DNA from: Asterias amurensis
Taxonomy: Eukaryota > Echinodermata > Asteroidea > Forcipulatida > Asteriidae
DNA length: 64,000 nt
Direction: 5' to 3'
NCBI RefSeq assembly: GCF_032118995.1
Contig: NC_092660.1
Coordinates: 17,222,501-17,286,500, forward strand
Under the pieces are notes generated by a model. That model was given only the letters and a program-made list of their open reading frames with translations, was not told where the DNA came from and searched no databases. The position numbers and the translations under genes were made by a program. Positions 9,886-52,904 of the stretch are shown here, one piece after another. Within the stretch, counting starts at the first letter, position 1, and each line of letters opens with the position of its first letter.

Positions 9886-9979
9886 GTTATGATAACAAAA
9901 CTCGGGAAAATACTGAATATTCGTACGCATCAGTGTAAGGGTAAAACCAAATTCTTTATTCCAGGTAAAAGGTATTCTA

Positions 9980-26700: not shown

Positions 26701-29700
26701 ACATTTGACATTCATATAGGTTTGTACAGTGAAAAAAGCAGCATTGATGTTCGCTGTACAAACCAATGTGAATGTCCAGTGTCCAATAACAAAATAACAC
26801 TCTATAGCAACTATAATGTATTCATGTAGCTCAGCATTCCTTGTCTGCTTCAACGTAATGAATTATTCATGAGCGTTAACTTACACGTCACTTTTAGAGA
26901 CATAACGTCGATGCGTCAGGGATTCAATGGCCAACCAGCGAACAGGAATCCGGGTCTAAAATAGGCACACATAAGAACATTGCATCAAGGCATGTTGTGG
27001 TTTTAAGGGTAATGAAATAAATATTCACAATTATGAATGGTAATAATTTTTATATTTAGATTCCTTAGATTCCTGAACACAAACGTCCTGTCTTCTAGAA
27101 AGTCCGAAATCAGAAACCTTGGCGACCAACTCTCCCCCAAGAAGAATGTTTCTCGCAGCCAAATCACGGTGAATTATGATTGAAGAAAAGCAAACCCACA
27201 ACTATGAATTACGATCATATTTGAAATGGGCACAGATAAGAACATTGCATCATTGCATGTTATAGCTTTATGGTTAAAGAAATGCAAATTCACAACTATA
27301 AATATTTACAATAAATATTTAAGATATCATGCCTTCGTCCCTGCAGTGGACCAAGAAGAGCAAAAAAATACCATAAAATCAACACAAAATGAGACTAATA
27401 AAATGATCAGTTAGTTTTCCATCTTCAACTATTTACCTTAGATTCCTGAACATAGACGTCCTCTCCTCTTGAAAGTCCGAAATCAGAAACCTTGGCGACC
27501 AACTCTTCCCCAAGAAGTATGTTTCTCGCAGCCAAATCACGGTGAATAATCTGCAACGAACAATAATGCTTTTTCTTCATAGTCGAAAATGGTCTGCACA
27601 CTAGGCCTATACTTTACAATTTTAAAGACACTATTGATAGTCAAAGACCAGTGTATCTCAACATATTAATTAAATAACAAACCTGTGAAAACTTGAGCTC
27701 ATTTGGTCGTCGAAGTTGCGAGATAATAATGAAAGAAAAAACACCCTTGTCACACGAAGTTGTGTGCTTTCATACGCTTGATTTCGTGAGCTCAAATTCT
27801 AAATCCGAGTTCACGAAATCAAATTCGTAGAAAATTACTTCTTTCTCGAAAACTACGTTACTTCAGAGGGAGCCGTTTCTCACAAAGTTTTATATTATCA
27901 ACGTCTCCCATTTACTTGTTACCAAGTGAGGTTTTATGCTAATAATTATTTTGAGCAATTACCAATGGATTTGGAGGCAACTTCAAAAATCACTTACTCC
28001 TGCGACCGAGAGATGTTGCATTCCTTTAGCAACGTCTTCACCAAACTTCATCAATTGTGCCATAGTAACAGGAGAAGCTTTGTATTTAGACTGCTCCCGT
28101 TTTAGCTGAATTGGGCGATTTTTACGCAGATAGTTACGAAGGTTATCGCCTGGAACAAACTCCAATGCAACGTACAAAATTCCTTGGTGCAAATGACAGA
28201 CAAAATTTTTAATTTTTTTTACAAATAAAAAAATAAAAAAGCACATCTTTGAACAGGTTGGTGGTTAACACAATACTTTACTTATAAGATCTACTAGGCC
28301 TTTGGTTCAACACTCAAATTGTATAAATTGTGTATGATACACATTTAAAACTATTCAAAGTTTAGCTTAAACGAAAAAAAATAAAATGGCTTAAAACCTA
28401 CCATCATGACAGGACGCCCCCAAGAGGCCAACAACATTTGGATGAGTTGTGATTGAAGTCATTGTCTGAAACTCTTTCAAGAAATCATCAGCAGCGTTCT
28501 TTGGGGATCCACCTGAAGATCATAAAAACAAAATGTGTTCAAAATGTAAAGCCCATTAAAGCATTAGGATGTGACCATAAGTAACAATAATAGTACAAAT
28601 TGCGCCATATAGGCCTACAAAGCAAGAAAAGGAAACAAGAAAAACATCATTGACCAAATTTTGTAATAAAAAAAATTACAAAATTAATTGGTGTAGTTTG
28701 ACATGGATTGATTCTTTATTCGGTTTTTATAGTGACAAACTGAACTATTCCTGACCTTTGAGGATTTTGATGGCTGCTTTTATGACTTGTCTTTTCTTCT
28801 TAATTCCACCAAGACGTACTTCTCCAAAGTTTCCTTTCCCGAGTATGGTATCTTCAACAATCAAATGATCCCATTGAATTTCCCAGTCGCCTGCCCAGAG
28901 TGGAAGACCGACGTCCTCATAGATGTCCTTGTCGTCATTTAAATGTACAGCGGTTGATGATTGGTTTGTTGTGACAGTGCGATTCAAATCCTATACGAGT
29001 CATTAAAGAGAAACTGTCCGTTTGGGTAATCACTCTTAAAATTATGGCATTAAACTTTTGGTTAGAAGCCTACTGCAGCTTTCGGTAGTACAAATCATCT
29101 TCAGAAACATTTTACTTGGAAGTAATGTGGTTATGTAGGCCTAATAATGTATCAGTTTTTATTCCCAACATTTGAAGCTGAGACGCACTACTGCATAAAT
29201 GCTTCAGATTGTGTATTAGGGATTATTTTTCCTGCGTTGACATAATTCAGTCCGGTTTTTCGGCGATATCTTAAAAAATGCAAAATTTCACGTTTGTTTA
29301 ACACTCACATTTATGTAGGATTGAAACGATCAAACTTTCCATCAACCGAAGATATAGTTTTCCTTTGACGCCATTCAATTAACTGGTCTAAAACGCATAA
29401 CCTTAACCGTTTTTCTTGTTATTCGTTGTCGTGTAGTTTGTTTTTGGTAATGTGAGGGTTTTGTTCTGTTAGTTCCAAATGAAGTGCTGACGGTGGGGAA
29501 TTGAGCTGGTATACAACTACACCACAACAAGGCAGGGTAAGAATGAGCAACACAGCAAAAATTTTGCAGTTGACGATTTTCTTTGAACATACCAATGTGT
29601 AATACAAACTTTCTGTACATGAATTATTTAAAATTAAAATAATGTCTTATTTCGTCTTACCAGTCCTTCATTGGGTCCACTAGAGGCAGCCAGAAGATCG

Positions 29701-32700
29701 TTGCGGTCTTTTCTCCTCCATTTTAGGATTAAAATTGGAACAACAATTAAGACTATAAGACCTAAGATGATAACTGGAGCAATCAATGGGTTTGCAGTTG
29801 GCGCTGAAGAGAGAGCTGAAAAAAAAGTAAATTTAGTTAAGTGAATACTTATCTTGGTTGGCGACCCTGTTTTTGTATTATTCACCGGTAGAGGGCGCTC
29901 CATAAACTGTTTGAGAGACTCACTTGGAAGGACTGAGCAAGTCTACAAGTTTGCATCGTGTGATAATATCTCTTCTCAAGTAATTTGTAATATCGGCAAC
30001 TACGTCAACAAAACTTGAACGTCTCTTATCACAAGACTAAGTATATCGACAAACCAGAGTTAGTGCCGAAGTGGGGGTCTTCTGGACTTGATCAATCATC
30101 CCCTAACAAACATTTCAGAATAATCATAAAATAAATGAAGACCACGTATATCTTAAATACTCAAATAATAATAAAACTAGTACACATGTATCTTTACCTT
30201 GTACAGCGACTGGTTGTGAGTAGGTGACTGTAGCATACTGTATAAAAAAAATAAAAAATAAATAGTACAATTTGTAAACTTGTATGTAATGTTCCTGGGT
30301 AAAAAAAAAAAAACGGTCTGCATATTCGTGCATATTATGTAAATGTGAAGCGAGCTTGACGTCACAAATTGCCCGACGGAGCTCCCAAACATAGTTGTGA
30401 CGTCAATGATCAGGGCTTAACAAGTAAAGTCAGGATTGACAACGATTTGAAAACTTACTGCACGATCACATCGTGGGAATGTATTGATATGTTATGATAT
30501 GTAAATGTTTACCGTTCCATTGCTACGGCTAACCGCTCCAACACGAATGTCGTACGTTGCTCCTTTGTCTAGTGGTACATTGAGGTAGCCTCCATACATT
30601 TTATCATCTCCAACTACAAAAGAGTCTTGAACCATCTCTTTGGATAGTTCAGCTGCAATGTAGTCGTCGTGAGAGTCCTCAGAGTGGATGGGGTCTAGAG
30701 CTTCTCTCTTCCTCTTGGATTCAGTCTTCTTTACATGAATCACGTAGGATCTATAGCATGAAGAATAAAATGAAGAGAATGTATCCATTTGGTTCAATGA
30801 TGTTACACTGGTCAGAGTTGACCAGGAGGCCTGACCCGTTTTCATGTGAGCCCAACCCAGGAATTAGTTAAAATAAATCTGGGATTTTGCTTCGGGTTCT
30901 GCCTCCGTTTGATCCATTTCTTAGTCACTTTGACTCAATACGGGTCATACCGACCCAAAATGAGTCAGTCCCCCACTGAAACTGGAATTATTGTCAATAT
31001 TGTTAACAACAGTTTTTTTAGTGTAGAGTAGTATTAATAGCTCTCTTAAAAATGTGCTGTAAGCTCTGGAATGATAACAAAAACATTAGAAAGCGCAGAA
31101 TCCGCCGAAAGGGCGCCCAAGGCGCTTTACACAAACAATGGCTTCAAGGTAAGAAACAAAGTGCACAATGTAGGACTAAAGCCACAGTTGTGAATAAAAT
31201 TTACTAAAAAGTAAAGAGAATATGCTTAATAGGTTTTGCTAACTTTCGTCTTATTTTTGTTGTGTCATTTAAAAAAAATGTATTATGAATGTTAAAATTA
31301 TTGTTGAATAATACTTACGTGATATATACGTCATCAGGTACGCGGCTGAGATTGATAGTGACCGTAGTATCTGTGGCGTCGCTTGGATTTGAGCTTGGTA
31401 CCGGGGGTGAAGGAGGGTCTAGAATAATTCCATACAATGAAAAAATTAAAAAGTAAAACAGTCAGTTTGCCATGTGGTTTATTATTTGTATTTGAAATGA
31501 AAAGCTGCATCCCTTGGGTGATTCCCTGGCTGCCGCTTCCCAAGTTGTATCGTAAACTTGGGTGTGATCATTAGTTACATGGCAGCTGTATGTAAAGGTT
31601 GTATGGCTTCTGATTTGCACCCCATTCCGTTTTACATTGACCAATTAGGGAGACCACCAACATGGATAGTTCTGTTGGTAGAGCACCGGCTCGTTAATCC
31701 GGAGGTCGTTGGATCAAGTCCCGCTTTAGTTATTTTTCTTTGTTCAACACCCTGTGTTTTTTATACTACGCTTAGGCCTATAAATGGAATTTGAATCGTA
31801 CAAAGTAATAATAATTGAAAGTTTATTTTCGGACGATGGTTGAATTATTCGTTAGCGAGTCCCGTAAACTAAATGAGTATTTTTCTTACTTTCCAGTGGC
31901 TTAGTAAACACTTCAAGTACTGCTGCATCGCTGGTGAATATTTGGTTTTGTGCTGAAATCTTCAACTCGTATCTAGTTGTTGGTTCGAGATTGGTTATTG
32001 TAGCCTGTAACTCATTTCCTAGTTCCTTATTCATGTACGCAGTATCTGCAGTAAAGTCCGCCTGGTGACGTTTCTCCACAGCTCTGTACTCCACCTATAG
32101 TCAGTGTGTTTGGAATCGAGAGGAATTTTAAGTCGTGTCCGTCTCTTTTTCAAATACGATCCGTTAGAACCGAGTGTGACATTTCTTATTTTAAAATAAA
32201 CAGAACGATAATTAGAATTAAAAAACGTGTTTCGAAACAATGTTTACACAATTATGTTGAGCTTTATACACGATTTGCCCGGCAAGCGTGTATCACTTTG
32301 ACACGAATACTCCAGGATAGATTTGACAGAAGTTTCTAATGTGAAAAATAAAAATAAAAATGGATCGATTCGTATATGCCTCACAGTGAACGTTACACAG
32401 TAACCCTATGTGACATCATTTACATTCCCATAACTTGGTGCTCACAATGGGAGACTTTTTGAAAGCTCTGCCACTAGAGGGCAGCAGACCTACCAGGTAA
32501 GGGTGCACAACTCCTATAGCAAACAATGGTAAATGCTAAACATTCAAAAATACTCAAAAAATATTTAGAAGTCTCTCAGCCTCTTGAAAATTAAATCAGA
32601 TACATTGTCATACAACTAAACTTCAGATTTCTTCTCATTTTTGGGTAGGTCACCATTTTGGAATTTTTGCTAATTACCCCAGAAGAAACACTCCCAAAAC

Positions 32701-35700
32701 CTCATGCACACCGCTTGCTTTCATAGGGGAACTCGTGTCCAGTACGTCCTGTTCCAGAACAGTTTGGTTTATGCTGGCATTGTGTTATGAAAAACAAAAA
32801 TACAGTTTGGCTAAATCTAAAATACAAAATCAAAAACACGCAAAACACAAGGTATTTGCTGTCAGTGACCGTCACTCATGCTTCTCCTATTCCTAAGTTG
32901 TTGACATTACCTGGTGAAGAGCGCCCTCTCTTGGTGAATGGCAGATAGTGTAAAGTTTCCCATTAGTTCATTACGGAAATTTAAGCTACATTAAAGACAT
33001 TTCAAAAACTCAGAAAGTATATACATCATTTTTAGTGAGCGAGTGTTACATTACCTTTTGAATGACAACCTTTTGAATGAAACCTTTTGAATGACAGTTA
33101 ATTTGCTTAGGGGAATTTGGCAGTACGTGATCAAATAAGTCCACTGATGGGAAAAGGAATTACATAGAGATACCAGGTGTAAGTTGCCAGATGGAAAGGA
33201 TTTGCCTTTTTTGGCCCCTTTCTTTAATGGAGAGTTCCCGTAATGGTAGCCCTGGGGTGGATTTCACAAAGAGTTAGGACTAGTCTTATCTTGAGTTAGG
33301 ACCAGTTACTCGTCCTAACTTAGGACTGTCCATACAATTTGTATATCTCCTAGGACTAGTCCTAAGTTAAGACTAGTCCTAACTCTTTGTGAAATCGACC
33401 CCTGGTAGCATATTTTGTTAATATTTCAGAGTTAATGTGGTGAGCTTTATTGGCGAGTTTTTGTAAGACAATTTAGCCCAAGATGATTCTTTAATATGTG
33501 AAGTTTAAAATACTGTTAACACGATACATACGATGTAGTTCATGATTTGCCCATTTGGGTTCATCGGTGGATCCCATTCCAAGGTCACTGACATCTCAGT
33601 TTGATCCGTCGACCGAAGATTCTCGACTGGACCAGGAACTATGGTTTAATCAGAATTATCAATCAAGTCAAACGTGATAACCAAAGATTTAGACTAGTGT
33701 TTTTTATGTTTTTTAATGATTATAAAGACAGACATCGGTGTAAAATAAATATAGATTATAAAGACACTAAAAACTTTTGGTAGTTGTCAAAGACTAGTCT
33801 TCACGGTTGGTGTATCTCAACATATGCATAAAATAACAAACCTTTGATCGGTCGACAAAGTTGCGAGATATTAATGAAAGAAAAAAAAAACACTTGTCGC
33901 ACCATGGTCACACGAAGTTGTGTGCTTTCAGATGCTTGATTTCGAGACCTTAAATTCTAAGTCTGAGGTCTCAAAATCAAATTCGTTGAAAAATACTTCT
34001 TTCTCAAAAACCACGTCACTTCAGAGGGAGCTGTTTCTCACAATGTTCTATACTATCAACCTCTCCCCATTACTCGTAATCAAGAGAGGTTTTATGATAA
34101 TGTTTTTTTCGGGTAATTACCAATAGTGACCACTGGCTTTAAATATTGAAGTTTGTTTGATTATTTAATGAGTGAATACTATTGTCACTAAAGACGCCTA
34201 TCAGGAACGTAATCACTGTTGCTCACAAGCCCGAGGGAGCTTGTAGAGACAAGGGTGCTTGCTATGAGAACCATAAACACTGGGGTCAACACTACTCTTC
34301 CAGAATAAGTGTTCTTGGTTCTTTTACGTGAACTACCAATTCTAGTACACAATTAAAGGCCTACGACTTAAAGGAACACGTTGCCTTGGCTTGGTCGAGT
34401 TGGTCTTGTTATAACCGTTTATTATAAAATCGGTATGGTTAGAAAGATGTTGTAAAAGTAGAATACAATGGTCTACACAAATATGCCTCGAAATTGCGTG
34501 GTTTTCGTTTTACCTCGTCGACAAACACGGTCGGCCATTTATGGGAGTCAAAAAGTTTGTTACGCCGAGATGTTTTTACAAAATATAAGTTTGAGGGACA
34601 TCTTGATGATGTCATCAAGTGTCACTTGATGTCATCTTGTAGGTACACTTTCAAACATTTATATCGTTGTATGTAATACTCGAATGTATAATATGGTCTA
34701 ACGGTTACGATTAACTCACCCGAACCCTCCATGCATTCTCCAGTATCTTTAAGACACGTTCCTCCTTCTGCACAGTGGCATGTTTGTTTACAATCAGCAC
34801 CATACCTACCATCCGGGCATTCTGAAATAATATTAACAGTTTTATATTTTTCTCTAAGGATATGTCGGCTCTTCCTCATAAAAATGTAAGAAATACAAAA
34901 CATTGCTTATCACGCTTATACGCAATTGCTCAGGCCAGTCTATGCCTTTGTTATACCAAGAAGCATTCTCTCACCTAGTCTTGGTCCAAGACGTTACTGT
35001 ATCATACTCGTATCGCGGTGTCCTGACAGAGGGCGCGCTTGTAACCGAAGCTAGAAATCAAACCAATTATAGCCTTGCATTCTGTTGTTTGAATTGATCC
35101 CTTTCGGTGCGAATGTATTGGAATCAAGACTACGTCTTACCTTGCATACAGTCCAGTCCCATGTAGCCGGCAGCACAAGAGCATCCGTAAGGATCAGGAA
35201 GACAGAATAAATGAGCTTGGCAGGCGTTGTGGTGTGGATCATGACTATCAGAACAGCTGTATTGAGCGTCTTTACCAAACACATGACGACCATGAACTGA
35301 AATATGAAAGATGATCAAGTCATCATTGTTAGTATTTTAGGCTTCTAAATTAGGTATTAAAAACCTAAGTAACATGTTTTTACAGTTCGCAAAACATTTT
35401 TAATTGCGGCAAAGATGTCTTATCCTGCCACACAGTCTAATCTATTTCTACCTCCATGGTCTAATGACTTAGTGTTTAAACCTTTTTCACAGTTATCTCC
35501 ACTGAAGCCCGGAGCACAGATGCAGGTTCCTGTCCGATCACCACATATTCCTCCATTGTAGCATCGACGACATGCACCCAAGCACATCATTCCCCACATT
35601 CCTGATGGGCAAGCTGAAATAAATGTAAATGACAAAACGTATAGTATGATTTCAAACAAAATGAGCCACATCTATAGTATACATACAAAGTATTTAAGTT

Positions 35701-38700
35701 AGTAAAATGTTTTTGTTTAGATGGCAAACAAACCTCGCACTACGAGTCTCATTATGCCGTGACGTTGTTGATCTTCTTGGCCGTCCACGAAGCAGCTATA
35801 TATCCCTTCATCTGATTGGACAACACTTGGAATAGATACCGTGAGCTGATTGTTCCATCCATCTATTGCATCTCCATGATGCTTCCATCTGACGTTTTCA
35901 TTGGTCTGTCCGTTATATGTTACCATTGTTAGTGTGGCCGACTCGCCTACATTTACTGTCAGTGTTCGCTGCTCAGGAAGAATATCAACATTGCCGTCTG
36001 AAATCAGAAAAGAAGAACGACATCAAAGTTGCATCATGGGTCACTGTTAAATACACAATGTTCTCACTCACAGCTTAACTTTATTACTGTCTTAGGCCTT
36101 ATAATCTTACCGTTCTTAGGTAACAGTATAGTCTGTATCCTGGTGGTTCTCCTTCCACTTTTAGACACCTCCGAGTAGAAGACACCGACCCTGTCTATCC
36201 CACCAGCCTGGGGTAATGTCAGAGACCTTGCTGCTCGGCGCAGTTTAGGATCATCTACTTCACTGGATCCTGCAGGAAGTCCAGTATTAGTTCCTCCTGT
36301 TGTCAATTGTCTGCCAAATGAAATACTAGCCGTCAAGTCACTGCATCCTTTGTACGATGTAATGGCTGCTTCATTGTCTCCGGTCTGACCAATCAGAGGA
36401 ATGTTAGTCACAAGTGTAAAATCTATTCCCATACCTGTAGAAACAATTAAAGAAGGGTTCAAACACAAATTTTCAGAATACGATTCAATTAAACAATGTT
36501 TGTGAATCGTTGAAAGGACAACGATGTTATGTGACATTCTTTTAAGCGCTATGAATAGGCCTACCATATATTTGATTGTATTTTAAGTTGAGTTAAATTG
36601 TAAATATTAATGTGATACTCGAATAGAACATTGAAAATTCCTTGTGTGTCACTGCGATAGTATGATCCTTGCTCTATGACCATTTTGATCAAGTTGTTTA
36701 CAATGTATCTTTTCTTTTACGGCACAGCTCGTTCTGTTAGAGAGTCGAGTACTAAAATATAAAGTAACATGTATAAAGTTGCTGCAGGATTTGTCTGTAC
36801 AGTGCAACAACAGGTTTGAAGGTTTGTCTTTGACGAGCGGTCTAGTTTACAGAATTCAAATTCCGGCGTTGTCAAGACTAATTTTAACCACAATTATCTT
36901 TCGGATGGGACGTAATATAAAGCCTTAGGTCACGTGTGCTCTTTGGTGAATGTGCGTCACCCACTCAGTTGTGCTTAATTATTTTTTAATCAATAGTTTG
37001 TACTTACACGCGGATACTTCGGAGTGCCATACTTGTACCTCAGCCAATGTAAGGGATTCGGTACGGGGAATGTCGACACTGACATACCGCGAGAATCTAG
37101 GTGGATCACACATGAAATCAATCCAGGCATCTGATCTGGCTTGTGGTTCGGTTACTGGACTACCACACGCTGGGTTATCAATGACAACGTCACTCAGACC
37201 AGCTCTTACAACAGCTCCCACTAATCGCAACTCAACACGTTCTGTGAAAAAAAACACCCGAAACAATAACATTGATATGGGATTTGAGGCATTGCATGGT
37301 GAGGTATCAATTGGTTCACGGTAACACGTGTGTACAGTATTCTTGCTGTGTAAATTATGTTCTTTTGAGAACTTGTCTCGCAATATATAGAGTCTTACTA
37401 TGACTAACGGATTAAACCTATTTGGACGAATTCAATCTTTGCATTAACATTGTGCTTTATTCTCTCTTCTCCGGTTTTCCACTCCTGTCTGTGTAACCTT
37501 ACACGAGGTCAACTCAATTGCATACTACAAGTGTGATCATGTGAACACTACATACTATCAAGGTGACAATTTTTCAGAATTCAGGAGACTTCCCTACTCC
37601 TACTTATTAAATACAACCTAGCTGTGCGTATTAAACTTCAGGGCCCAATTTTATAGCGCTGGTTAACGGTAAGCAAATTTGCGTGCTTACTGTAGCAGAA
37701 AAAATTGGTTAAGCCTTAGCGTATTTTACAGGATAGCAATAAAATTGGGCGGCCATATTGCGTGTTTACCGTGGATTTGCATTGTGACGTCATTTATTTT
37801 CGTGCCGTAAGCACCGGAATGTTAGCATGCTTTTTGTGCTTACGGTTAGCAGCGCTATGAAATAGAAATTGCACAGTAAGCACAAAATCGGCCGCTAAGC
37901 AGCGCTATGAAATTTGGCCCTGTACTGTGCGTATTAAACTTCACTACAGCGGATTGTGTTGTTAGTTATCAACGTTACGACTACTTGCTGTACACACATT
38001 ACGATTCATGTGGACTAGGCCTGGGCGACTGGTGCGACTAGTGTCTACTACAAAATAGTCGCGAGTACTTCAAAAATAGTCGCAACTACCTGTTTTGCGA
38101 ACCAAGTGTGTCACTCACGACTATTCACGACAACACAATTTACTTACAAAACACAATCAGACATCAGGGACACAATCCTTCAATCTATTCAGCTTATTGA
38201 AGTTTACTAAATTGCGCTTGCGGCACACGTTGCCACAATGCATCTTAAGATTTAGTCGCAACTATTTGAGGTGCGACTGTTCGAGTAGTTAATTTCACAA
38301 GTCACCCAGGCCTAATGTAATCCTAAAGTTATCACGAAGCTGCAACACTTTCAAACTTAGTTCACAGATTTCGTTTAAAACATAACAATTTGCAACCATC
38401 AACAAATTTGAATTTTACATTATAGAGTCACCATGAATTTACATTATGCAATATGAAGACATTAAAGACGATGTGACCTCTGACGTCACTCGAAAACCAT
38501 AACATGATTCGCGCGCATACCGCCGGACAAAACCATATTGTGTTTTGGCAGCCAGCTAGAAAGTGTACGCAATCTTACCATGACTACGCGTCTTTTTGCC
38601 CAGCGAAACATGACGTATACAGTGTTTTGTCAACAGAGGGCGGTTTGAATGTAAACATAGGTCACATCGTCTATACAGGTGTCGAATATTACCACGTTCG

Positions 38701-41700
38701 TGTTTTCTGTTCATAACTCTGATTTTGCCGAGACAATATTCCGCCACAAGATCCACCTTCCACCAAGGGTTCAGTTCATAAACTAGAAGAAAAACAATCG
38801 GACAGTTGTAAGCAATTCACGTCAGATTACTCAACAACCGAGATACTGCTGTATCTAAACTGAACATATTCTGGTGAAATTCGATTGAAGCCAGGGAGCA
38901 AGAAGGGTTTTTCACAGAGGGGTTGGAAGTGTTTGGAAAGTTGCCCCAAATAACACTGAAACGAGGTCTATTTACATTATGCAGTGTGACTTGGTTACGA
39001 CTTGAGATTTGCAATTTGATGTGATTACTTGTAAAGTTTATATTTTTTCAGTAAACACATTTTACTTGTTAAGTCCTTTGATAATATTTCATTCAATAAA
39101 TACCTTTTAATAAAGTATCATTTTCTGGGGCAGCGTTTGTACACACTCGAATTATTACCAAACTTAATCAATTTACAGACCGTAAAAGGCACCTGGAAAG
39201 AGTGAACGAGGAATTTGTTTTTCTTGTATAATGGTCATTGGTCACAATGTTCCCATCATTGCTAGTTTTGTAACCTAGAGAAAAATTGCAATAGACCAAT
39301 GGCGCTACCAACGTCACGTGACCTGGGATGGGCGTTACACACCAACAAACATGGCGTACTGCATATCAACGTGCGTTAAAAATACATGATTATTGTTGCA
39401 TTTGTTTGTTCAATCGAGGTGTTTTTTTTCGAAATCACTGAAGAACATTCTGGAGTTTGTACCATGAGACCTTACCGGTGGCTGAATAATGCCAGTAATG
39501 GGTAAACACAATTCCACAAACTAGGAAATTCTACGAGAACGTTCACGAGGATGTCATGAGTTTGTGCACGGAAAGTGTGGTTTATTTATTTTGCTGCCAA
39601 TATTTTCAATAACAGTTTCCTATGGTCCATCGGTACGAGTCTTCCCATGTCTTTACTGTGTAGCTGTGTGTCTCTATACCCATCTCAGGTCACTGGTGAT
39701 CACGTGTCTATTCGACTTTCAAAAACTTCATATATAAGGCCAGGTAAAAAGAGAAACATGTTTAGCGTCCCCTTCTTTTTTCCATTTTTTATGATTTTTT
39801 TTTCATGGAAAAAAGGGATATATTTTAACGGTCTCATCAAGAAAATACTTTACTTAAAAAATGTGTCGGGCAGTCATTAAAAATAATGGTCCTCTTCCTT
39901 CCTTTTTTTTAAAGTATGTTTTGTTTTGTTCAATGTCTTGTCCAGCATGTTTAATTTTTTATTGTAAGTTTGAACAGTAAAAAAAACAATGTTTTTTTAA
40001 ATTTTAAAAAGAATGGTAGTCATTTTGAAAATAAAAAAATTAAAAAAACCTCCTCCTCCCTTTTTTTTTTTAGAAACCCGGACGCTAAACATGTTTCTTT
40101 TTTACACGGCCTAAACCAAACTGTCAAACAAATTCCAAAACATCCTGGTTCAGAATAGATCTGTGTTTGTGTCAGTCTTAATCCGGATTCTATGTCAAAA
40201 TGTCTCCGATCCGGAATGTTTCGACCGAAGATCACAGTCAGAAACCATGATTGGATTCCTGTTCAAAGACCGAGTAATGAGCGAACAACCTGATCTGAGA
40301 ACTTTAACCGTGCATTATACAGACACGTTGAATAGGAACTGTTTTATACCTGTACGGCTGAAGGTCAAACCTGACCAATCTCCATCCAGAGCTTCCGAGG
40401 CAGGTCTCATTTGATCAATATTTGAACTTTGACGACTTGGATTACCGAACAAAGGAAGAGCTGCAATCAAAAGAAAAAAAAATGCAAAAAGAAGCACACG
40501 GGTCATACTTTAGGAATGATAAACGATTCAATGTCATTATTTCGTCCAATCGAGAATAAGGGGGAAGGTTCTTCATGCTTTGGGGCAGCAAGGCAACATT
40601 GTAATGTGGAAGTATTGTCCTTGCTTGGTGGTACAAGCATAGATTGGCACGCAGTCAGAGTACAATAGCTGGCGGTAGGGGTGCGCCGTACTCCTTCTTT
40701 CGAAATGTGTCCTTCTAGGTCATCAGATACGTTTTGTAGGTCACCCGCGAATCCACCACTCTCTGATTTTGGTAGCTAGAAATGTAGGTAGAATGACAAC
40801 CAATTTTCAAAAGGCTGCAGTAAGTTGTTTATTGTACCTTTATTTTGTCATAGGACAAATCTGTGATGGCCCTATAGAGCAGAACATTTGTTTTCTTATG
40901 ACCACTGCCTGTTGTGTGCCAAATCCTTCGTCTCTACTAGAAGGCACATCCCATTACCTACATCTAGGTGTCGTCAGCAGCAGAGTGTGGGCTCGAATCC
41001 CGGTCCAGACACGTGTGCCTTTCTGAGCGAGGCATAATTGCTTTATAAAAAATTGGGAAGGTTCTGTTCGAGCAAGGCTCGAGTCCAGTGGATCGGGAGG
41101 AGGGAGGAGGGTTACGTAACCCTTCTCCGCCGTCGGGAGGAGCATTGCGATTACAGCAACTACTGTACTTGCCTACACAGGAGTCAAAGTTAACACTGGA
41201 CCGCAGGCCTGATGAGGAGGCCAGTGATTTTAGCGTCGGGCCAGTAAACTCCTGACCGGACAAGCCCGGTGGTTTTGTGCTTTTCAGTTCAATAATAATG
41301 GGCTACCTCTGTAATCTTTGTAAACAAAATCTGATAATATCTTTCAATTCTCTTGAGTATCAAAGTACGCTTTCAATAAGACAATTGAGATCTACATGTT
41401 AGTTTTTATATAGTGCTTTTTACGAACGAGGGGCGTCCCAAAGCGCTCCACATTATTGCCCCTGGTCACTGGGCTTTAATTCACTCCTTAAATAAACCAT
41501 CTGTGTCAGCTCCCTGGGGAGTATAAAGCCTATATGCAACAAATATGCGCTCGGCTAAATAAATCATAAGAACCATCTCTGCCCTCTAAGGTACCCATGT
41601 ACCCCTGGGTGGAGAGAAGCATGTAGTTAAGTGTCTTGCTCAGGGACACACGTGTCACGACCGGGATTCGAACCCACACTCTGCTGAACAGAATCACCAG

Positions 41701-43185
41701 GGCCCAATTTCATAGCGCTGCTTAACTATAAGCAAATTTGCTTGCTTACTGTAGCAGAACAGTTTGCTTAAGACTTAGCGTATTTTACAGGTTAGCAGAA
41801 AAATTGGGCGGCCATGTTGCGTGTTTACCGTGGATTTGCATTGTGACGTCATTTATTTCTGTGCGGTAAGCACCGGAAGGTTAACATGCCTTTTCGTGCG
41901 CTTACTGTTAGCAGCGCTATGAAATAGAAATTTGCACAGTAAGCACAAAATCGGCCGCTAAGCAGCGCTATGAAATTTGGCCCTGAGCTTGAGTTCATTG
42001 CTCTTAACCGCTCGGCCACGACACCCCATCAGTGTGTCATGGTCTTGTCCTAATTCAACGCCTTTTGATTTCGGTTTCGTAAAGTGAAATACTGGTCTAG
42101 TAAACATTTTGAGCTATACAACCCCTGCGGTCGTCTGTTGCTTACCCCCAAATTGGAGCCCTACTAGATACAGGCATCCTTTTTAAAGGGAACGTTGCCT
42201 TGGATCGGACGAGTTGGTCTTTGAAAAGCGTTTGTGACCGTTTGTTATAAAATACATAAGATTAGAAAGATGTTTTAAAAGTAGAATATAACGATCCACA
42301 CATGTCTCGAAATTGCGTGGTTTTCCTTTTACTTTGAGAACTAACACGGTCGGCCATTTTGTGGAGTCAAAATTGTGCTCAAGGCAACGTGTTCCTTTTA
42401 TAAGCAAGTTCGGGCGAGCGACTAGACTTGACGACACCGACTAGACTAACCAGAAACCATAAAGCATAGGGAGATTTACTATAATCTCGAACCATGCACG
42501 TGATCATGGTCGATATGGTCAACTCGATAGCTACTCCAGTTTCTTGCCAGTCTAACCCGAACTTGCTTCCTTAATCAAGGACTGTGTATTGGGGGTAACC
42601 CCCTTTCAGCTTCACTCCAGGCCATAACTAGGTGACCACTTTTCCAGATAACGTGAGAATCCCGCTAAAATAAATGACTTATTTTCTGAACGAATGTGAC
42701 ATTTGACTTTATGATTTATCTTATCAAGAAGATTTACAGAAAACCAAGAAGGTTCTCATTCACATTGTTGCATACTCACCAGCTAAAAAGGTATCTCCAC
42801 TTCCACTTTCAGTGATTTCTTCAACCATGACCTCGGCAATCGCTAAGTTTGATATTGCGCCCTCATCGGTTGGAATATCAAAACTCACGTAGCGAGCTAT
42901 GGCGATCGGGTCTACAGTGAATTCAACGACCACTCCCCGTGCATCTTCCGGCAAGGTTACTGGAGATCCAATCATTGCGTTCTGGAGATGTTCTGAACTC
43001 AAACCAGCTCGTAGTACAGCATCCTCATTATTTCTGATATCTGCTGTTTAAATAAAAAGCAACAAGTCAAGGAAAAATGCAATGCTGAGGAAATCACTCC
43101 ATTACGTCAGATTGACCCGGGTCCCTGGTTCCTGACCCATGTACGGTCAATTTTATGAACCGGAATCTCACCGCGATACTTTATT

Positions 43186-43216
<31 letters not shown>

Positions 43217-46200
43217 TTTCTTATTTACCCTGGGGAAACCTCTCAGTGAAACACTGTTTTTCAGAGGTGCTCAGCAACTACATAACACATTAAAATTTTT
43301 AAATTGTATTAATATAAAAAATATGTAAAAAAATAATAATAATGTTAAAATAGAAAAACAGCCAAATTTAAATAAAGACAATGGATAATTATACCACAAC
43401 ACTCAACAGCACAAAAACTTTACAACAAGCAAAATATACAATATGGACAATGATTAAAATTCGGGTCCAGCCAAGAAAAACACCACAAGCCCCATATATT
43501 AAAAAATCAAATTTTTGTATTGAACTTTAATACTTGCTACAGTTCATGGCAAGGTATTTTCAGTGTAAGGGGGAGTTTGAATGAGTTGACCCCATGAGCA
43601 GAACATTTTCGTTTACCTGAGCTGGTTTTAAGTAGTGGGGGAACTACATTACCTTGTTAGCCAGATCTGGTGCTGTATGAGTGGGCAGTGGCGGCATAAT
43701 TAAAAACATTACAAAGTTGAGGAGGCAGTGTAGAATAAAGACTTTTATATACTAAAATGTTTAAGTGAAAATTTCTCTTGGCACTTAAAGACTCCCAGCC
43801 AAGAGTAGATAAAATAGTAATATAACCCCTATACAAACAAAACCGCCAAGCTGCCAACAGCCAATCTTAGATCCCATACAAACATTGGTTTAACGTCTAT
43901 GATTATGAATTGCATAATTCAAGAATTTGTGATTCAGCTACTAGACGACTCTACTTATTCTACTCGTCCTTGTGAGATCAGTGGTTAATACGTTTGGTAG
44001 GAATCGAACCCACGATTTTATAACGCAAATCGAATGTCGATGTAGTCTAACCACTCGACCACGGTGACCAACGTGTGAATATAATTATATCATTGGTTAT
44101 GCTTGTGAGTTAGCCTTAGATCACTCACCATAATCATCATCCCTGTTTGTCAGAGTAACCGTCTTGAGGCAGTAGGTTTCTCCAAGATCCACTTTCCACC
44201 ACGGGTTTGCTGTCCAGTCTGCAAGAGAGTATAGACTTGATGGTTAATGGTCATATTGCAAGTTATTTTAGGCCCTACGGTAGTTTTGTTTGAATGGTCT
44301 GAATCTGAATCTATAGTAAGCAAATCATCATGGAAACATCACAATAACATTGTGGGGTGGGTGGGGGTTGGGTTACCCTGAATAGAAGAGGGAAAACACA
44401 CGCAGACAGGTAGGGACTGAACACTCAACAGGGGTCCAATGAGGTGACAGGCAGGAAAAATAACCATAAGCTAACCTGTGACTGGCCTAGTTATTCCATA
44501 CAATCAACTTACTAACGCCTGCATGGTCCAATGCCAACACACATACATATTGCTTACGATGTGCTTTGAATATTTTTGATTGACATAAAAGGAATTAATG
44601 CTGAAAACAACAAGACAATCACGACAGTCTTTATTCCTCTCTTATACAAACATGCTGTGCCATCATCAATTTTAATGTAATTTTTGTGTGTGAGAATAGT
44701 AGTAGTAGGCATCCGTCCGTCAATACTGACGATGGACTGCGCCCGGGGGGTTGTCCTCTCTCTTGCAGCTGCGGCTGTGGCCGAGAAGACCGATTCTTGC
44801 ATGGTAGTCTCTGCCACAGTTGTTGCAGACGGGGAGGGGGCTGACACAGGGGTGGGGGCTGCTACTCGCAATTTCCTCCTCTGCCTCTTCTCCTGCAGCA
44901 AGGAAGTGCGCCTCTCTTCAGCGTGGTGGACCCCTGTGGCAACTGTCTGCCTCCAGGCGCTGCGTTCTTGAGCAGCTTCCTCCCAGCTGTTGGGGTCTAT
45001 GCCTGCCTGCCTCATGTCGCGTCTACATACGTCCTTGAGTCGTAGGTACGGGCGACCAATTGGCCTGGAGCCTGATGAAAGTGCGCCATAAAGGATTGCT
45101 CTTGGCAGCCGACTGGCGTCCATCCTGTGGACGTGACCGAGCCATCTGAGGCGGCGCTGGCTCAACATGGCGAACATGCTGGTGGAGTGGGCACGTTCTA
45201 GGACTTCAGTGTTTGGAACTTTCTCCTGCCATGTAATGCATAAGATGCGGCGTAGGCAGCGCAGGTGGAAGCTGTTCAGCCGTTTTTCTTGACTGACGTA
45301 GGTGGTCCAGGCCTCACTGCCGTATAGCAGAGTGCTGGTGACGCATGCTTGGTAGACCTGGAGTTTTGTGCGCACGGCTAGGTTCTTATTTAGCCACACT
45401 CTATTTGCCAGCCTGGCCATCACTGCGGCGGCTCTGGCAAGACGGGTGCTCAAGTGTGACAGATTGCTGGAGACTGTTGACCCGAGGTACGTGAAGGAGT
45501 CCACACAGTCAAGAGTCGTGTTGCCAATACAGATGGAGGGTGGGTTTTCGACATCTTGGGCCATGGCATGGGTCTTCTTGATGCTGATGGTGAGGGCAAA
45601 CTCATTGCATGCGTAGGAAAGCCTGTCCACCAACTGCTGGAGCCCTGTCTCTGTGTGGGATGCTAGTGCAGCATCGTCTGCAAAAAGCATTTCCCTGAGA
45701 ATATCGATCAGCAAACACACACTTTAACTATAAACGTATAATAAGAAAACGTCGAGGTCTTGCATCGTTGAATTCTATACTTTTTCGAGCTCACTACTAA
45801 TTTCTTAATTGGGTGAGAATAATAAGTTCTCAAAATAATACCAGGAAAGTAACACCAATATAATGAAATTCTGGCTCATGACTTCAAACTACATGTATAC
45901 GCTTTCAAAGACAAAGAATAACTTCGGTGATTTATTTGTGAGTTTAGCTTTCGTAATTTTATTAAAGTGCTAGTGCCATGATCCTCTGAGGATAATTTTG
46001 TTCCCGCAGTTAACTGGGATAACCTCAGTTGATGAAACTTTCATGTCTGTGGTATAGATTGATGATAGACTTACTTTCCAGACGATACTGTAATATCCCT
46101 ATGCTGCTCACCATAGTTCCCAGCAGCCTAATTTAGAATACTGAACAAACTTACATGAGACGGCTAATGTGGCAGGATCCCCATCTACAGCTCTACCAGA

Positions 46201-46681
46201 CACATGAATACCCCTTGTAGTGCTTTGGCTGGTAAGACTGCCGTTCAGTTCAAGAGCAACACCTGGTGACATTCAAATGGATTTATGATATTTTAATTAT
46301 TACCAATAATTTTCTTTTTTACGTGGTATTACGAATAATTTTCTTTCTACGTGGTATTATTCGTTTACTTATTTCTAACGATTCTTTCCCAATATTATTA
46401 GTTGCACTGACGTCATCAGTGCTGTAATTGGAAAAAGCTGATTGTTCTGCAAACAAATACAACACGTACTCCATTACTACCATCCCTCAATATCCCTCCA
46501 TACATCAATACTTAGTTTTTAAATTACCCTCAAACTGTAGATTCATTCAAAATATAAAGTTTCCGCAATTGACGTTTTTGCAAAATGTTTATGGGATTTG
46601 ATAAGTATACTTACCAATATTTAGACTGGCGAGAACAACAACCAATGACGTCAATCCTAGTATCCTTTGATGAACCGACAT
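23703..46681 (-). CDS. Gene B: F-type-lectin/Tie-like receptor tyrosine kinase, 27 exons
   Basis: Exons, 5' to 3': 46681-46615, 46262-46155, 44218-44129, 43040-42780, 40460-40350, 38782-38693, 37241-37008, 36434-36111, 35997-35734, 35613-35482, 35296-35141, 34821-34720, 33638-33532, 32094-31890, 31418-31319, 30750-30513, 30237-30198, 29815-29661, 28990-28756, 28512-28402, 28182-27998, 27550-27437, 26955-26885, 26478-26438, 25550-25454, 24173-24068, 23768-23703. All borders are GT-AG and every phase joins, giving 1269 residues. Order: signal peptide, two F-type lectin domains (23-320), Tie Ig domain (321-428), Ig (429-516), three EGF modules (517-646), fibronectin III (647-876), transmembrane helix (about 886-908), kinase (about 970-1245), tail. 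The Ig-Ig/EGF3/FN3/TM/kinase body recalls vertebrate Tie1/Tie2; the N-terminal lectins do not occur there. Ligand unknown. Exon borders are read by eye. Confidence 0.92.
24068..28990 (-). CDS. Gene B exons 19-26: tyrosine kinase domain
   Basis: Glycine loop GKGNFGEV (about 979-986), ATP lysine in AAIKIL (about 1003), alpha-C glutamate in FLKEFQTM, catalytic loop IHRDLAARN (Asp about 1110), [16 protein letters not shown] (DFG about 1128; activation-loop Tyr about 1138), then [28 protein letters not shown], and [12 protein letters not shown]. All residues needed for catalysis are present, and HRDLAARN plus PVRW is tyrosine-kinase specific. The activation loop (GEDVYVQ) resembles Tie2 (GQEVYVK). 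Exon 22 (27550-27437) carries the catalytic loop, and a dead copy of it lies at 27064-27174. Likely an active kinase. Confidence 0.95.
24395..24780. repeat. Dispersed repeat copy, intron of gene B
   Basis: TGGCAGCAGACTTACCAGAT, a GGGTGCACCC block and TTCAAAAACACACAAAAAAT recur in similar order at 32460-32700 (AGGGCAGCAGACCTACCAGG; CATTCAAAAATACTCAAAAA). The family is unknown. Confidence 0.55.
25067..25404. mobile_element. T1 TIR element in gene B intron
   Basis: Diverged ends, with hairpin CTCAAGTTCTAAATCTGAGG in the centre. Lies between exons 26 and 25. Confidence 0.8.
25657..26005. mobile_element. T2 TIR element
   Basis: Ends TTAAAGCCATTGGACACTTT and the inverse-like GAAAGTGTATAATGGCTTTA. 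Internal GACAACGAGAATTGATAATT and ACACGTGTTTAAA. The other copy is at 59018-59391. A partial T1 end follows directly at 26001-26120. Confidence 0.7.
27064..27174 (-). pseudogene. Dead duplicate of gene B catalytic-loop exon
   Basis: 37 codons align with exon 22 (27550-27437) without frameshift, with four changes: E to G, G to R, E to Q, and the activation-loop Y to C. The 5' border reads TCATAATTCACC where exon 22 has TGCAGATTATTCACC, so the AG acceptor is gone. The 3' border reads TCTAAGGAATC where exon 22 has TCTAAGGTAAA, so the GT donor is gone. Flanking intron is duplicated too: ATAAGAACATTGCATCA occurs at about 26970 and 27237. A tandem duplication of about 270 bp whose inner exon decayed. 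Confidence 0.9.
27624..27967. mobile_element. T1 TIR element next to gene B exon 21
   Basis: A nearly full copy with central hairpin. Its right end is 30 bp from the last base of exon 21 (27998), close to the splice donor on the minus strand. Confidence 0.8.
29661..29815 (-). CDS. Gene B exon 18: transmembrane helix
   Basis: [14 protein letters not shown], then the helix [17 protein letters not shown] and stop-transfer KWRRKDR, then a juxtamembrane stretch [12 protein letters not shown] ending in phase 0. Type I orientation follows from the signal peptide and the basic cytosolic side. Confidence 0.9.
30198..31418 (-). CDS. Gene B exons 15-17: membrane-proximal module with basic cleavage-like site
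   Basis: Exons of 100, 238 and 40 nt. Exon 16 encodes SYVIHVKK, then KRKREA (KRKR about 796-799), [29 protein letters not shown] and YDIRVGA. The second half resembles the last fibronectin module of PTPRK/M/T/U phosphatases, where a dibasic proprotein convertase site occupies the same place. B may therefore be cut in the secretory pathway and stay as a non-covalent dimer (inference). Confidence 0.85.
31080..31140. repeat. Short dispersed repeat piece
   Basis: GCGCCCAAGGCGCTTTACACAAAC resembles the block at 41425-41455 (CGTCCCAAAGCGCTCCACA). It is a fragment of the SINE-like family. Confidence 0.4.
31656..31735 (+). repeat. tRNA-derived SINE head
   Basis: AGTTCTGTTGGTAGAGCACC (A-box region), a GTTAAT anticodon-loop-like stretch, then TTGGATCAAGTCCCGC (degenerate B box). 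The T-loop has mutated from GGTTCGAATCC, so this is not called a functional tRNA. Confidence 0.5.
31890..33638 (-). CDS. Gene B exons 13-14: fibronectin III module
   Basis: Exon 13 (107 nt) has [24 protein letters not shown] and NPNGQIMNY. Exon 14 (205 nt) has [24 protein letters not shown] and VFTKPL. The phase 0 intron inside the module is shared with gene A. Exon 12 (EGF) splices directly onto exon 13 in my model. The membrane-distal fibronectin module of gene A has no counterpart in the intervening 34719-33639. Confidence 0.88.
33253..33404. mobile_element. MITE, about 150 bp, GGATTTCACAAAGAGTTAGG ends
   Basis: The left arm GGGTGGATTTCACAAAGAGT and right arm CTCTTTGTGAAATCGACCCC are inverted. 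Inner arms contain TTAGGACTAGTC. Located between exons 14 and 13 of gene B. Confidence 0.85.
33758..34143. mobile_element. T1 TIR element in gene B intron
   Basis: Full length, with a poly-A expansion and GTCACACGAAGTTGTG core. It occupies the interval between exons 13 and 12, where gene A carries an additional fibronectin III exon. Confidence 0.8.
34370..34640. mobile_element. T4 TIR element fragment
   Basis: Left arm TTAAAGGAACACGTTGCCTT, ACCGTTTATTATAAAATCGG, then ACACGGTCGGCCATTTATGG. Related to 42184-42402 and to the intact small copy at 56529-56757. Confidence 0.7.
34720..35613 (-). CDS. Gene B exons 10-12: three EGF-like modules
   Basis: One module per exon (132, 156, 102 nt), all phase 1-1. 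Exon 10: [29 protein letters not shown]. Exon 11: a variant with [25 protein letters not shown]. Exon 12: [20 protein letters not shown]. Spacing resembles the three laminin/EGF-like repeats of Tie receptors and of SREC/MEGF proteins. They join the Ig head to the fibronectin stalk. Confidence 0.9.
35734..35997 (-). CDS. Gene B exon 9: second Ig-like domain
   Basis: 264-nt exon, phase 1-1. [10 protein letters not shown] gives the B strand with the usual cysteine replaced by methionine. VRWKHHGD gives the tryptophan. [12 protein letters not shown] gives the D-x-G-x-Y-x-C motif. With only one of the two canonical cysteines, the standard disulfide cannot form, which is odd for an extracellular Ig domain. 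Confidence 0.85.
36111..36434 (-). CDS. Gene B exon 8: Tie-type N-terminal Ig domain
   Basis: A single 324-nt exon, phase 1-1. It starts [19 protein letters not shown], carries [17 protein letters not shown], and later [15 protein letters not shown] and [10 protein letters not shown]. This resembles the special first Ig domain of Tie1/Tie2 (D-x-LI-S-PL, then ISIGR, later A-F-C-E). It is the best family-specific marker that B is Tie-like. In vertebrates this domain helps bind angiopoietin; whether that holds here is unknown. Confidence 0.78.
37008..40460 (-). CDS. Gene B exons 5-7: F-type lectin domain 2
   Basis: Exons of 111, 90 and 234 nt with the same phases as exons 2-4, so the two domains arose by internal duplication. 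Marks: [31 protein letters not shown], and SRYVSVDIP with LTLAEVQVW. It retains a cysteine pair (PACGS and DFMCD) of the sort seen in F-type lectins and absent from domain 1. The aspartate of the fucose motif is replaced (NRKHERGER). MITEs at 37641-37920 and 38016-38315 lie in the intron before exon 7. Confidence 0.85.
37641..37920. mobile_element. M1 MITE with 19-bp flanking direct repeat
   Basis: GGGCCCAATTTTATAGCGCT at the left and AGCGCTATGAAATTTGGCCC at the right. CTGTGCGTATTAAACTTCA occurs on both sides (37622-37640 and 37925-37943). The second copy at 41700-41983 is about 85-90% similar by eye. In the intron between exons 6 and 7 of gene B. Confidence 0.85.
38016..38315. mobile_element. 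TIR element, TAGGCCTGGGCGACT ends
   Basis: CTAGGCCTGGGCGACTGGTG at the left and CAAGTCACCCAGGCCTAA at the right are inverted. Inner AAAATAGTCGC/GCGACTATTT-like motifs repeat. About 300 bp, non-coding. Confidence 0.7.
39738..40113. mobile_element. Inverted-repeat element, AACATGTTTAGCGTCC arms
   Basis: GGTAAAAAGAGAAACATGTT...AGCGTCC at 39742-39769 pairs with GGACGCTAAACATGTTTCTT at 40080-40100. The interior is poly-T/A rich. In the intron between exons 5 and 6 of gene B. Confidence 0.7.
40955..41070 (+). repeat. SINE piece with B box
   Basis: GTGTCGTCAGCAGCAGAGTG, then GGCTCGAATCCCGGTC and a CTGAGCGAGGCATAATTGCT tail. Same family as 5825-6370. Confidence 0.5.
41400..42026 (-). mobile_element. 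tRNA-derived SINE, interrupted by an M1 MITE
   Basis: Read on the minus strand: GTGTCGTGGCCGAGCGGTTA (A box, 42023-42000 region), then the MITE 41983-41700, then TGTGGGTTCGAATCCCGGTC (B box), TTGAGCAAGACACTTAA-type body and a CGCTTTGGGACGCC tail. The A-box part looks like a Leu or Ser tRNA. Confidence 0.75.
41700..41983. mobile_element. M1 MITE nested in a SINE
   Basis: GGGCCCAATTTCATAGCGCT at the left, AGCGCTATGAAATTTGGCCC at the right. Inserted between the A box and B box of the SINE, so it is younger than that SINE copy. Confidence 0.88.
42184..42402. mobile_element. T4 TIR element
   Basis: AAAGGGAACGTTGCCTTGGA at the left and AAGGCAACGTGTTCCTTTTA at the right, with GTTATAAAATACATAAGATT and CGGTCGGCCATTTTG inside. 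The right arm is shorter than the left. Confidence 0.7.
42780..46262 (-). CDS. Gene B exons 2-4: F-type lectin domain 1
   Basis: Three exons of 108, 90 and 261 nt. Family marks are VAL near the start, [27 protein letters not shown], and a C-terminal ARYVSFDIP followed by NLAIAEVMV. The canonical fucose motif R-x-D-x4-R/K is imperfect: NRDDDYGDIR places the second arginine one residue too far. The usual adjacent cysteine pair is missing. Carbohydrate binding is therefore uncertain. The first intron of this group carries a LINE (44554-45720) and a tRNA-like SINE piece (43985-44075). Confidence 0.85.
43170..43222 (+). repeat. TTTA microsatellite
   Basis: About 12 uninterrupted TTTA units in the intron between exons 4 and 3 of gene B. 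Confidence 0.95.
43985..44075 (-). repeat. tRNA-like SINE head
   Basis: On the minus strand GTGGTCGAGTGGTTAGAC (A box) and GTGGGTTCGATTCCTACC (B box) are 35-40 bp apart. The two ends do not pair as an acceptor stem, so this is not a tRNA gene. Confidence 0.5.
44554..45720 (-). mobile_element. 5'-truncated LINE with open reverse-transcriptase C-terminus
   Basis: An open frame of 388 codons. It begins just before the reverse transcriptase active site (LFADDAAL, motif C) and continues through [19 protein letters not shown] and [10 protein letters not shown], then [28 protein letters not shown] and [15 protein letters not shown]. This is the region after the catalytic site in non-LTR retrotransposons. 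It is GC-richer than its surroundings. It sits in intron 2 of gene B on the same strand as the gene. AATAAA on the minus strand at about 44640 may be its polyadenylation signal. The truncation right at motif C fits incomplete reverse transcription. Absence of stops suggests recent insertion. I cannot assign the clade. Confidence 0.88.
46615..46681 (-). CDS. Gene B exon 1: signal peptide
   Basis: ATG at 46681-46679. The 22 residues are [13 protein letters not shown] followed by [10 protein letters not shown]: a charged start and a hydrophobic core typical of a secretory signal. Ends in phase 1 at GTAAGT. The same exon with three residue changes occurs on the other strand at 52724 (gene C). Confidence 0.88.
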
Positions 46682-52723: not shown

Positions 52724-52790
52724 ATGTCGGCTCATCAAAGGGTACTAGGATTGACGTCATTGGTTGTTGTTCTAGCTTGTCTCAATATTG
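52724..52790 (+). CDS. Gene C exon 1: signal peptide of a third paralogue
   Basis: ATG at 52724-52726. 22 codons read MSAHQRVLGLTSL and VVVLACLNIG, then phase 1 and GTAAGT. Compared with gene B exon 1 there are three residue changes (V to A, I to V, S to C), the frame is intact, and the donor is perfect. No second exon is recognisable in the next 11 kb; in gene B the next exon is only about 350 bp away. C is either a gene with a very large first intron swollen by repeats, or a duplicated promoter-plus-exon without a body. Confidence 0.75.
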
Positions 52791-52904
52791 GTAAGTAGAC
52801 GATTTGTTGCTTGCAAAAAAAGCAAATTTGGAAACTTTTCATGTTGAATCAATCTATGTTCAACAAATACTAAGAGAAACTTAAAAGAGAAAACTTGATG
52901 AGTT

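Follow-up and report, generated by a model that had tools for sequence, protein, structure and literature searches.

Gene B of Asterias amurensis would encode, on the reading that we favor at a probability of roughly 0.6, a single-pass Tie-type receptor tyrosine kinase with two N-terminal F-type lectin domains, belonging to a family whose members end in either a kinase or a phosphatase and act in paired signalling. The predicted products of gene B and its relatives C and D demonstrate by sequence the domains and their order, the common ectodomain, and catalytic domains of opposite kind whose motifs are intact. The most surprising aspect of the fusion is this family of matched kinase and phosphatase receptors around gene B. 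In the neighbours of gene B nearly the same outer part leads to a phosphatase, so that kinase and phosphatase sisters could give one signal opposite readings.

Gene model and Tie-like body of gene B

The window, meaning the whole stretch of DNA analysed, comprises 64,000 nt of assembly GCF_032118995.1 (NC_092660.1, 17,222,501-17,286,500, written here as C13:17222501-17286500), and the genome searched comprises 491.5 Mb in 23 contigs. One of these, C23 (16,427 bp, of which the first 6,000 were read), looks mitochondrial: translated with table 9, it has open frames recognisable as COX1, COX2, ND1 and ND2, the two ND frames lying on the other strand from COX1, a gene order characteristic of asteroids and in keeping with a sea star. 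Candidate exons of gene B were taken from stop-to-stop frames and simple splice scores. A start exon, defined by an ATG, a hydrophobic segment and a phase-1 donor, was sought in 46300-60000, where 46681-46615 was the sole candidate by these criteria. Gene B lies on the minus strand and extends from 46681 to at least 24068, with 26 phase-consistent coding exons and GT-AG splice sites:

46615..46681 (-): exon 1, ATG and signal peptide [22 protein letters not shown]; only candidate by the criteria, with an 86% identical exon and similar flanks in gene C
46155..46262 (-): exon 2, F-type lectin 1 part a; exon model, Pfam, corresponding splice sites in paralogs
44129..44218 (-): exon 3, F-type lectin 1 part b, NPWWKVDL; exon model
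42780..43043 (-): exon 4, F-type lectin 1 part c; exon model, Pfam
40350..40460 (-): exon 5, F-type lectin 2 part a; exon model, corresponding splice sites in paralogs
38693..38782 (-): exon 6, F-type lectin 2 part b, NPWWKVDL; exon model, PDB match
37008..37241 (-): exon 7, F-type lectin 2 part c; exon model, PDB match
36111..36434 (-): exon 8, Ig1, remote Ig_Tie2_1 match below cut-off; predicted V-type Ig-like fold
35734..35997 (-): exon 9, Ig2; exon model, Pfam, PDB match
35482..35613 (-): exon 10, EGF1; exon model, PDB match
35141..35296 (-): exon 11, EGF2 with [11 protein letters not shown] as in Tie2; exon model, PDB match
34720..34821 (-): exon 12, EGF3; exon model, PDB match
33532..33638 (-): exon 13, FN3-1 part a; exon model, Pfam
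31890..32094 (-): exon 14, FN3-1 part b; exon model, Pfam
31319..31418 (-): exon 15, FN3-2 part a; exon model
30513..30750 (-): exon 16, FN3-2 part b (Fn3_PTPRU match), at whose donor B/C homology ends; Pfam, DNA alignment
30198..30237 (-): exon 17, juxtamembrane; exon model
29661..29803 (-): exon 18, transmembrane (TM) helix; exon model, helix by eye
28756..28990 (-): exon 19, juxtamembrane plus kinase P-loop and AIK; exon model, Pfam, PDB match
28402..28512 (-): exon 20, kinase; exon model, PDB match
27998..28182 (-): exon 21, kinase; exon model, PDB match
27437..27550 (-): exon 22, kinase HRDLAARN and DFG; exon model, PDB match
26885..26955 (-): exon 23, kinase; exon model, PDB match
26438..26478 (-): exon 24, kinase; exon model, PDB match
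25454..25550 (-): exon 25, kinase; exon model, PDB match
24068..24173 (-): exon 26, end of the kinase C-lobe; exon model

The encoded order is signal peptide, two F-type lectin domains, Ig1, Ig2, three EGF domains, two FN3 domains, TM and tyrosine kinase. Each lectin domain is made of three exons with phase 1 at both ends, and the lectin exons and the Ig1 exon join in phase 1 to the Ig2-EGF3-FN3-TM-kinase body. Pfam searches of the product returned F5_F8_type_C_2 in two stretches (5e-16), fn3, ig/Ig_3 and PK_Tyr_Ser-Thr (4e-83). The first-pass annotation had placed the two F-type lectin domains in one model with a Tie-like receptor kinase, and the rebuilt gene bears this out; the range given there, 36111..46262, corresponds to exons 2-8 of the rebuilt gene. 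Of its 27-exon, 1269-residue model, the frame-consistent fusion stands; we rebuilt 26 exons, with a product of 1253 aa if translation is extended past exon 26 to a nearby stop. An additional terminal exon past exon 26, as in the 27-exon model, is likely.

Two further elements lie within the gene. A second copy of the HRD-DFG exon at 27064-27177 (-), with 89% identical protein, is a dead duplicate; it was rejected as a mutually exclusive exon because its acceptor AG and donor GT are both gone. Intron 2 holds a reverse-transcriptase fragment (44557-45723, minus strand; RVT_1, 22.6 bits, below the cut-off).

The best PDB match of the gene B body was Tie2 (2gy5, 1e-36), collinear from the end of Ig1 through Ig2 and EGF1-3. 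Gene B shares with Tie1/Tie2 (TEK) the order Ig-Ig-EGF3-FN3-TM-kinase and the FCLPDPYGC motif in EGF2, and Tie2 is also the best single-domain match of the kinase (273.9 bits, vs. 227.2 for RET and 222.6 for FGFR1); an EGFR construct heads the PDB list only because the scores of its two domains, 155 bits apiece, are added together. The catalytic motifs are intact, and [20 protein letters not shown] is present. Unlike Tie1/Tie2, gene B has two F-type lectin domains ahead of Ig1, and its Ig1 is very divergent, without the usual Cys pair when read against locus L010. Tie2 has three FN3 domains; gene B has two, and its paralogs C, D and E have an extra FN3 match upstream.

The Pfam search suggested at first pass recovered the F-type lectin domains, whereas for exon 8 the sole match was Ig_Tie2_1 (PF10430) at 15.5 bits (E 0.023), short of the cut-off of 25 bits. 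At two other loci, related exons exceed that cut-off (L010, 26.1 bits; L009, 37.7 bits), and gene B exon 8 was absent from the matches listed in a genome-wide search for this family at E 10. The predicted model of Ig1 (pLDDT 76) is an all-beta, V-type Ig-like sheet, and its best 50 Foldseek matches were generic V-type Ig chains (nanobodies, PD-1), with Tie2 absent among them.

Judging from the title of Stevens et al. (2010) and from a table in PMC12113024, a Tie receptor in echinoderms is already known. This is SpTie1/2 of Strongylocentrotus purpuratus, an echinoderm Tie receptor as gene B would be, tabulated in coelomocytes and axial organ.

Phosphatase relatives and the wider family

The closest relatives of gene B carry, by their predicted exons, a receptor tyrosine phosphatase inside the cell rather than a kinase. 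The first-pass annotation had missed them because they lie mostly outside the window:

52724..52790 (+): gene C exon 1, signal peptide, 86% identical to gene B exon 1; the rest lies beyond the window
C13:17289158-17319146 (+): gene C, lectin exons ahead of Ig1 by exon-by-exon comparison; remainder to 17333054
C13:17359552-17381791: gene D, lectin exons ahead of Ig1 by exon-by-exon comparison

The ATGs of B and C are 6,043 bases apart, head to head, and the ectodomain exons of C and D have 59-100% protein identity to those of B, exon by exon. The DNA of B and C aligns in gapped segments of about 76-95% identity that take in the introns, starting at the signal exon and reaching the end of FN3-2; repeats aside, the homology stops at the donor of the last FN3 exon (exon 16). 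Past this point gene C has its own TM-like exon, a wedge, and D1 phosphatase exons (TTWPD; VIHC|SAGVGRTG across an intron), followed by further exons that are D2-like by eye, one of them a 46% match to D1. When joined from its exons, the D1 phosphatase (PTP) domain of gene C covers the whole Y_phosphatase profile in Pfam (1-234/234, 255 bits). The same wedge and D1 exons are present in gene D, so that a complete PTP domain with WPD and HC(X)5R was found as a full profile in C and as D1 exons in D. A kinase in gene C was rejected: TM and kinase exon queries from gene B found no match below E 0.05 in the 40 kb past its last FN3 exon (C13:17319147-17359551), where Pfam gave the phosphatase.

In PDB comparisons of gene C D1, with a query short of one exon, summed scores were highest for RPTP alpha, sigma, epsilon and LAR; single-domain scores lie within about a bit of one another (kappa 215.3, gamma 214.9, alpha 214.1) and single out no one RPTP class. 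Like RPTP alpha, sigma, LAR, kappa and gamma, C and D have a cytoplasmic part with wedge and D1, WPD and HCSAGVGRTG. Unlike them, they carry a Tie-type ectodomain and lectin head that are nearly those of the neighbouring kinase.

Several minor features were seen in and beside the window. A minisatellite of 30 copies of a 51-base unit (52901-54444) begins 111 bases after gene C exon 1. Gene A (118-5361, plus strand) consists of FN3 exons and then a TM-like stretch; one FN3 exon is of Fn3_PTPRU type (21.6 bits, below the cut-off) and 47% identical to that of gene B, and a search for its catalytic domain in 5301-15200 (+) gave no Pfam match at E 0.1. The 5 kb directly upstream of the window (C13:17217501-17222500) reads N. 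An uninterrupted 208-aa frame at 8923-9546 (-) encodes a Tctex-1 dynein light chain domain (92 bits).

Receptor kinases are regarded as a family distinct from receptor phosphatases, the two being connected by way of substrates, as with vertebrate Tie2 and VE-PTP. Across B, C and D, nearly the same outer domain serves the two kinds of enzyme, and this arrangement apparently recurs several times in one chromosome region. Searches of the genome with its own sequences scored the best 123 of 423 Ig/EGF candidates, 124 of 205 for the lectin head, 125 of 492 for the kinase and 150 of 199 for PTP D1, and because only best candidates were scored the genome-wide counts are lower bounds. Hits on C13, C20, C10 and C11 that lay in or resembled Tie-type clusters were hand-picked and linked into chains by strand and distance; the chaining did not take in hits on other contigs, generic EGF arrays (C5), kinase hits on C20 and at C13:6.16 and 18.03 Mb, or secondary exons of the same loci. 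This yielded at least 67 chains (21 ectodomain-to-kinase, 23 ectodomain-to-phosphatase, 7 ectodomain only including gene F, 15 catalytic only and 1 lectin only), in which the kinase and phosphatase labels denote the next catalytic match on the strand, that is, proximity and not gene models, B, C, D and E alone having been checked exon by exon. A tandem array at C13:15.34-16.28 Mb comprises 16 chained Tie-type kinase loci with phosphatase loci interspersed; no lectin match fell there among the best 124 of 205 lectin-head candidates.

The EGF2 exons of 20 further loci, again labelled by proximity, were then compared. Gene B is 97% identical to C and D in this exon. Kinase and phosphatase loci were 100% identical in one pair (15.593 Mb, kinase, vs. 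15.639 Mb, phosphatase) and 99% identical in another (15.900 Mb, kinase, vs. 16.315 Mb, phosphatase), and a phosphatase locus at 15.138 Mb was 94-95% identical to three kinase loci. In a tree of 25 EGF2 exons (22 labelled, 3 unlabelled; 153 columns) the two labels interleave, with 6 type changes needed, at least 4 of them on starred branches. The labels showed no more clustering than in shuffled sets, 108 of 500 of which needed as few changes, and a single kinase clade was rejected (p-AU 6e-5, one identical kinase/phosphatase pair being left free). Three phosphatase loci (1.04, 1.77 and 18.01 Mb) form a phosphatase-only group. With labels assigned by proximity, these comparisons indicate further cases on this chromosome of kinase and phosphatase loci whose EGF2 exons are nearly identical.

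We give about even odds to a broader proposal, in which a large clustered family would couple a Tie-type ectodomain (lectin-headed in one subgroup) repeatedly to kinase or phosphatase, would be kept matched by duplication or conversion, and would serve innate recognition, with an external sugar or cell-surface signal written and erased by sister receptors. Matched ectodomains could also have come about passively, with no functional pairing, if an unstable cluster underwent gene conversion or recent tandem duplication. This we consider somewhat unlikely. The loci do lie in tandem arrays, and dS between B and D is very uneven along the gene (0.05 in Ig1 vs. 0.37 in EGF), which suggests gene conversion; however, B, C and D retain intact catalytic domains of two opposite kinds behind ectodomains that are alike, and their homology ends at the membrane-proximal exon. 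Passive conversion is compatible with other structural readings, and the odds of the alternatives overlap.

The lectin head and a proposed paired mode of signalling

The best PDB match of the gene B lectin head was FBP32 (3cqo, 7e-18), followed by eel fucolectin (1k12, 2e-9); together with the two F5_F8_type_C_2 stretches, these matches identify it by sequence as F-type lectin. A search of NCBIfam, a bacterial and archaeal library, gave no match for the head. Gene B resembles the F-type lectins 1k12 and 3cqo in its FBP32-type tandem domains, its NPWW(K/R)VDL core, and one or both fucose-contacting Arg residues. It differs from them in having neither the sugar-site His nor the vicinal Cys pair and in being fused to a receptor kinase, or to a phosphatase in C and D.

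The fucose-binding triad of F-type lectins, His-Arg-Arg with His52 and Arg79 among its positions, was located by ungapped placement, the His52 and Arg79 positions being taken from the PDB alignment. By this placement the equivalent of the fucose-contacting Arg79 is kept in 6/6 lectin domains of B, C and D, yet the equivalent of His52 is His in 0/6: it is V and R in the two domains of gene B, and V, I, L or R across the three genes. The second triad Arg is kept in lectin 2 of gene B (PDB alignment). The gene B domains do not carry the complete triad, and canonical fucose binding by the lectin domains of B, C and D appears doubtful because the His of the fucose site is missing in all six. The head thus has the F-type lectin fold with an altered site, for which a sugar ligand, such as the glycan suggested at first pass, is plausible.

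Codon counting between B, C and D gave dN/dS values of 0.5-1.4 for the lectin domains (1.2-1.6 for 'a' exons, 0.6-1.0 for 'c' exons and 0.2-0.25 for the core 'b' exons), compared with 0.2 for EGF, 0.2-0.4 for FN3 and, where defined, 0.25-0.6 for Ig1. In a contrast that excluded Ig1 and Ig2, constraint was weaker on the lectin exons than on EGF plus FN3 (Fisher p = 0.005 for B-C, 0.0013 for B-D and 0.003 for C-D). Raised dN/dS is not confined to the lectins, because the Ig2 ratios are also 1.05-2.7, on 1-3 silent changes. Lectin-exon values near 1 could reflect diversification or relaxed constraint.

Paired activating and inhibitory immune receptors are exemplified by SIRP, KIR and the like. 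Similar ectodomains, opposite signalling ends and a gene cluster are common to these receptors and to B, C and D; in contrast to them, the opposing ends of B, C and D are enzymes within the receptor, not ITAM/ITIM adaptor motifs. The near-identity of ectodomains with opposing signalling ends was found for B vs. C and D, and extends to the wider family by proximity labels. Nearly the same ectodomain is joined to a kinase (B and, more distantly, E) or to a receptor tyrosine phosphatase (C and D). In the mechanism that we propose, the lectin heads would recognise a glycan or glycoprotein displayed by microbes, by the animal's own cells or by foreign ones. A multivalent ligand might then cluster the kinase receptor and start phosphotyrosine signalling, and the phosphatase sister, drawn to that ligand or surface or in competition for it, would strip the phosphate and set a threshold. 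The paired set would thus be a catalytic version of activating/inhibitory paired receptors, used most likely in coelomocytes. The tabulated presence of sea urchin Tie1/2 in coelomocytes and axial organ (PMC12113024) would fit an immune setting, though it concerns another species and gene.

An alternative is that these are developmental or vascular lectin-Tie receptors, the heads serving as adhesion or spacing modules, an angiopoietin-like protein binding Ig2, and the phosphatases being incidental products of exon shuffling. The conserved Ig2-EGF body, closest to Tie2, is what such receptors would have, and the missing sugar-site His would be in keeping with a spacing role. We nevertheless judge this alternative unlikely, as near-identical EGF2 exons recur several times in kinase- and phosphatase-labelled loci, a match that incidental shuffling would not keep, and the lectin exons change faster than EGF plus FN3.

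B, C and D allow a direct test of opposing-enzyme signalling by one ligand, suggest how Tie-type receptors diversified outside vertebrates, and are concrete candidates for glycan sensing by echinoderm coelomocytes. Among the literature matches listed, at the level of titles and abstract beginnings, there was no description of an F-type lectin joined to Tie or of Tie-type phosphatases; an earlier description is possible.

Lectin-headed loci in the genome

Compared exon by exon, B, C, D and two further loci all have their lectin exons ahead of Ig1, in matching order and on a single strand:

C13:16803787-16821035: gene E, matches to a single lectin domain, kinase motif DLG
C11:6629817-6617013 (-): gene F, matches to lectin parts b and c

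An expanded lectin-receptor set, as first proposed from the window, is thereby upheld, with at least five lectin-headed Tie-type loci in the genome. Each lectin exon of B, C and D is flanked by an acceptor and a donor at the equivalent place, lengths differing slightly in D, and the lectin exons of gene F fall to about 36-45% identity. Between the lectin exons and Ig1 of gene B, no candidates for an alternative signal exon were found by the criteria used. Because the four paralogous loci keep the lectin-Ig1 order and strand and no alternative signal exon precedes Ig1, the lectin-Tie kinase fusion predicted for gene B is very likely one gene. That the model wrongly joins a gene for a secreted tandem F-type lectin to an adjacent, separate gene for a Tie-like kinase is highly improbable, and was rejected on the signal-exon search and the paralog comparison: any such domains would join in frame because all lectin/Ig junctions are phase 1, and F-type-lectin-like exons are abundant elsewhere in the genome, but order and strand recur at all five loci, even in F at its low lectin-exon identity, and the splice sites of B, C and D correspond.

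The two more distant members differ in their cytoplasmic parts. In gene E the kinase has DLG in place of DFG. In gene F, FN3 domains and a TM-like stretch were found, with no catalytic domain assigned; kinase exons farther down were rejected as its cytoplasmic part, as they look Ser/Thr-type and probably belong to another gene.

Outside Tie-type loci, clusters of F-type-lectin-like exons occur on C8, C14, C3 and C22 among the best 124 of 205 candidates, including a tight tandem array at C8:20.56-20.58 Mb. At C11:6.617-6.665 Mb (L041-L044), gene F (-) and a Tie-type phosphatase locus (+) are, by coordinates, arranged head to head like B and C.
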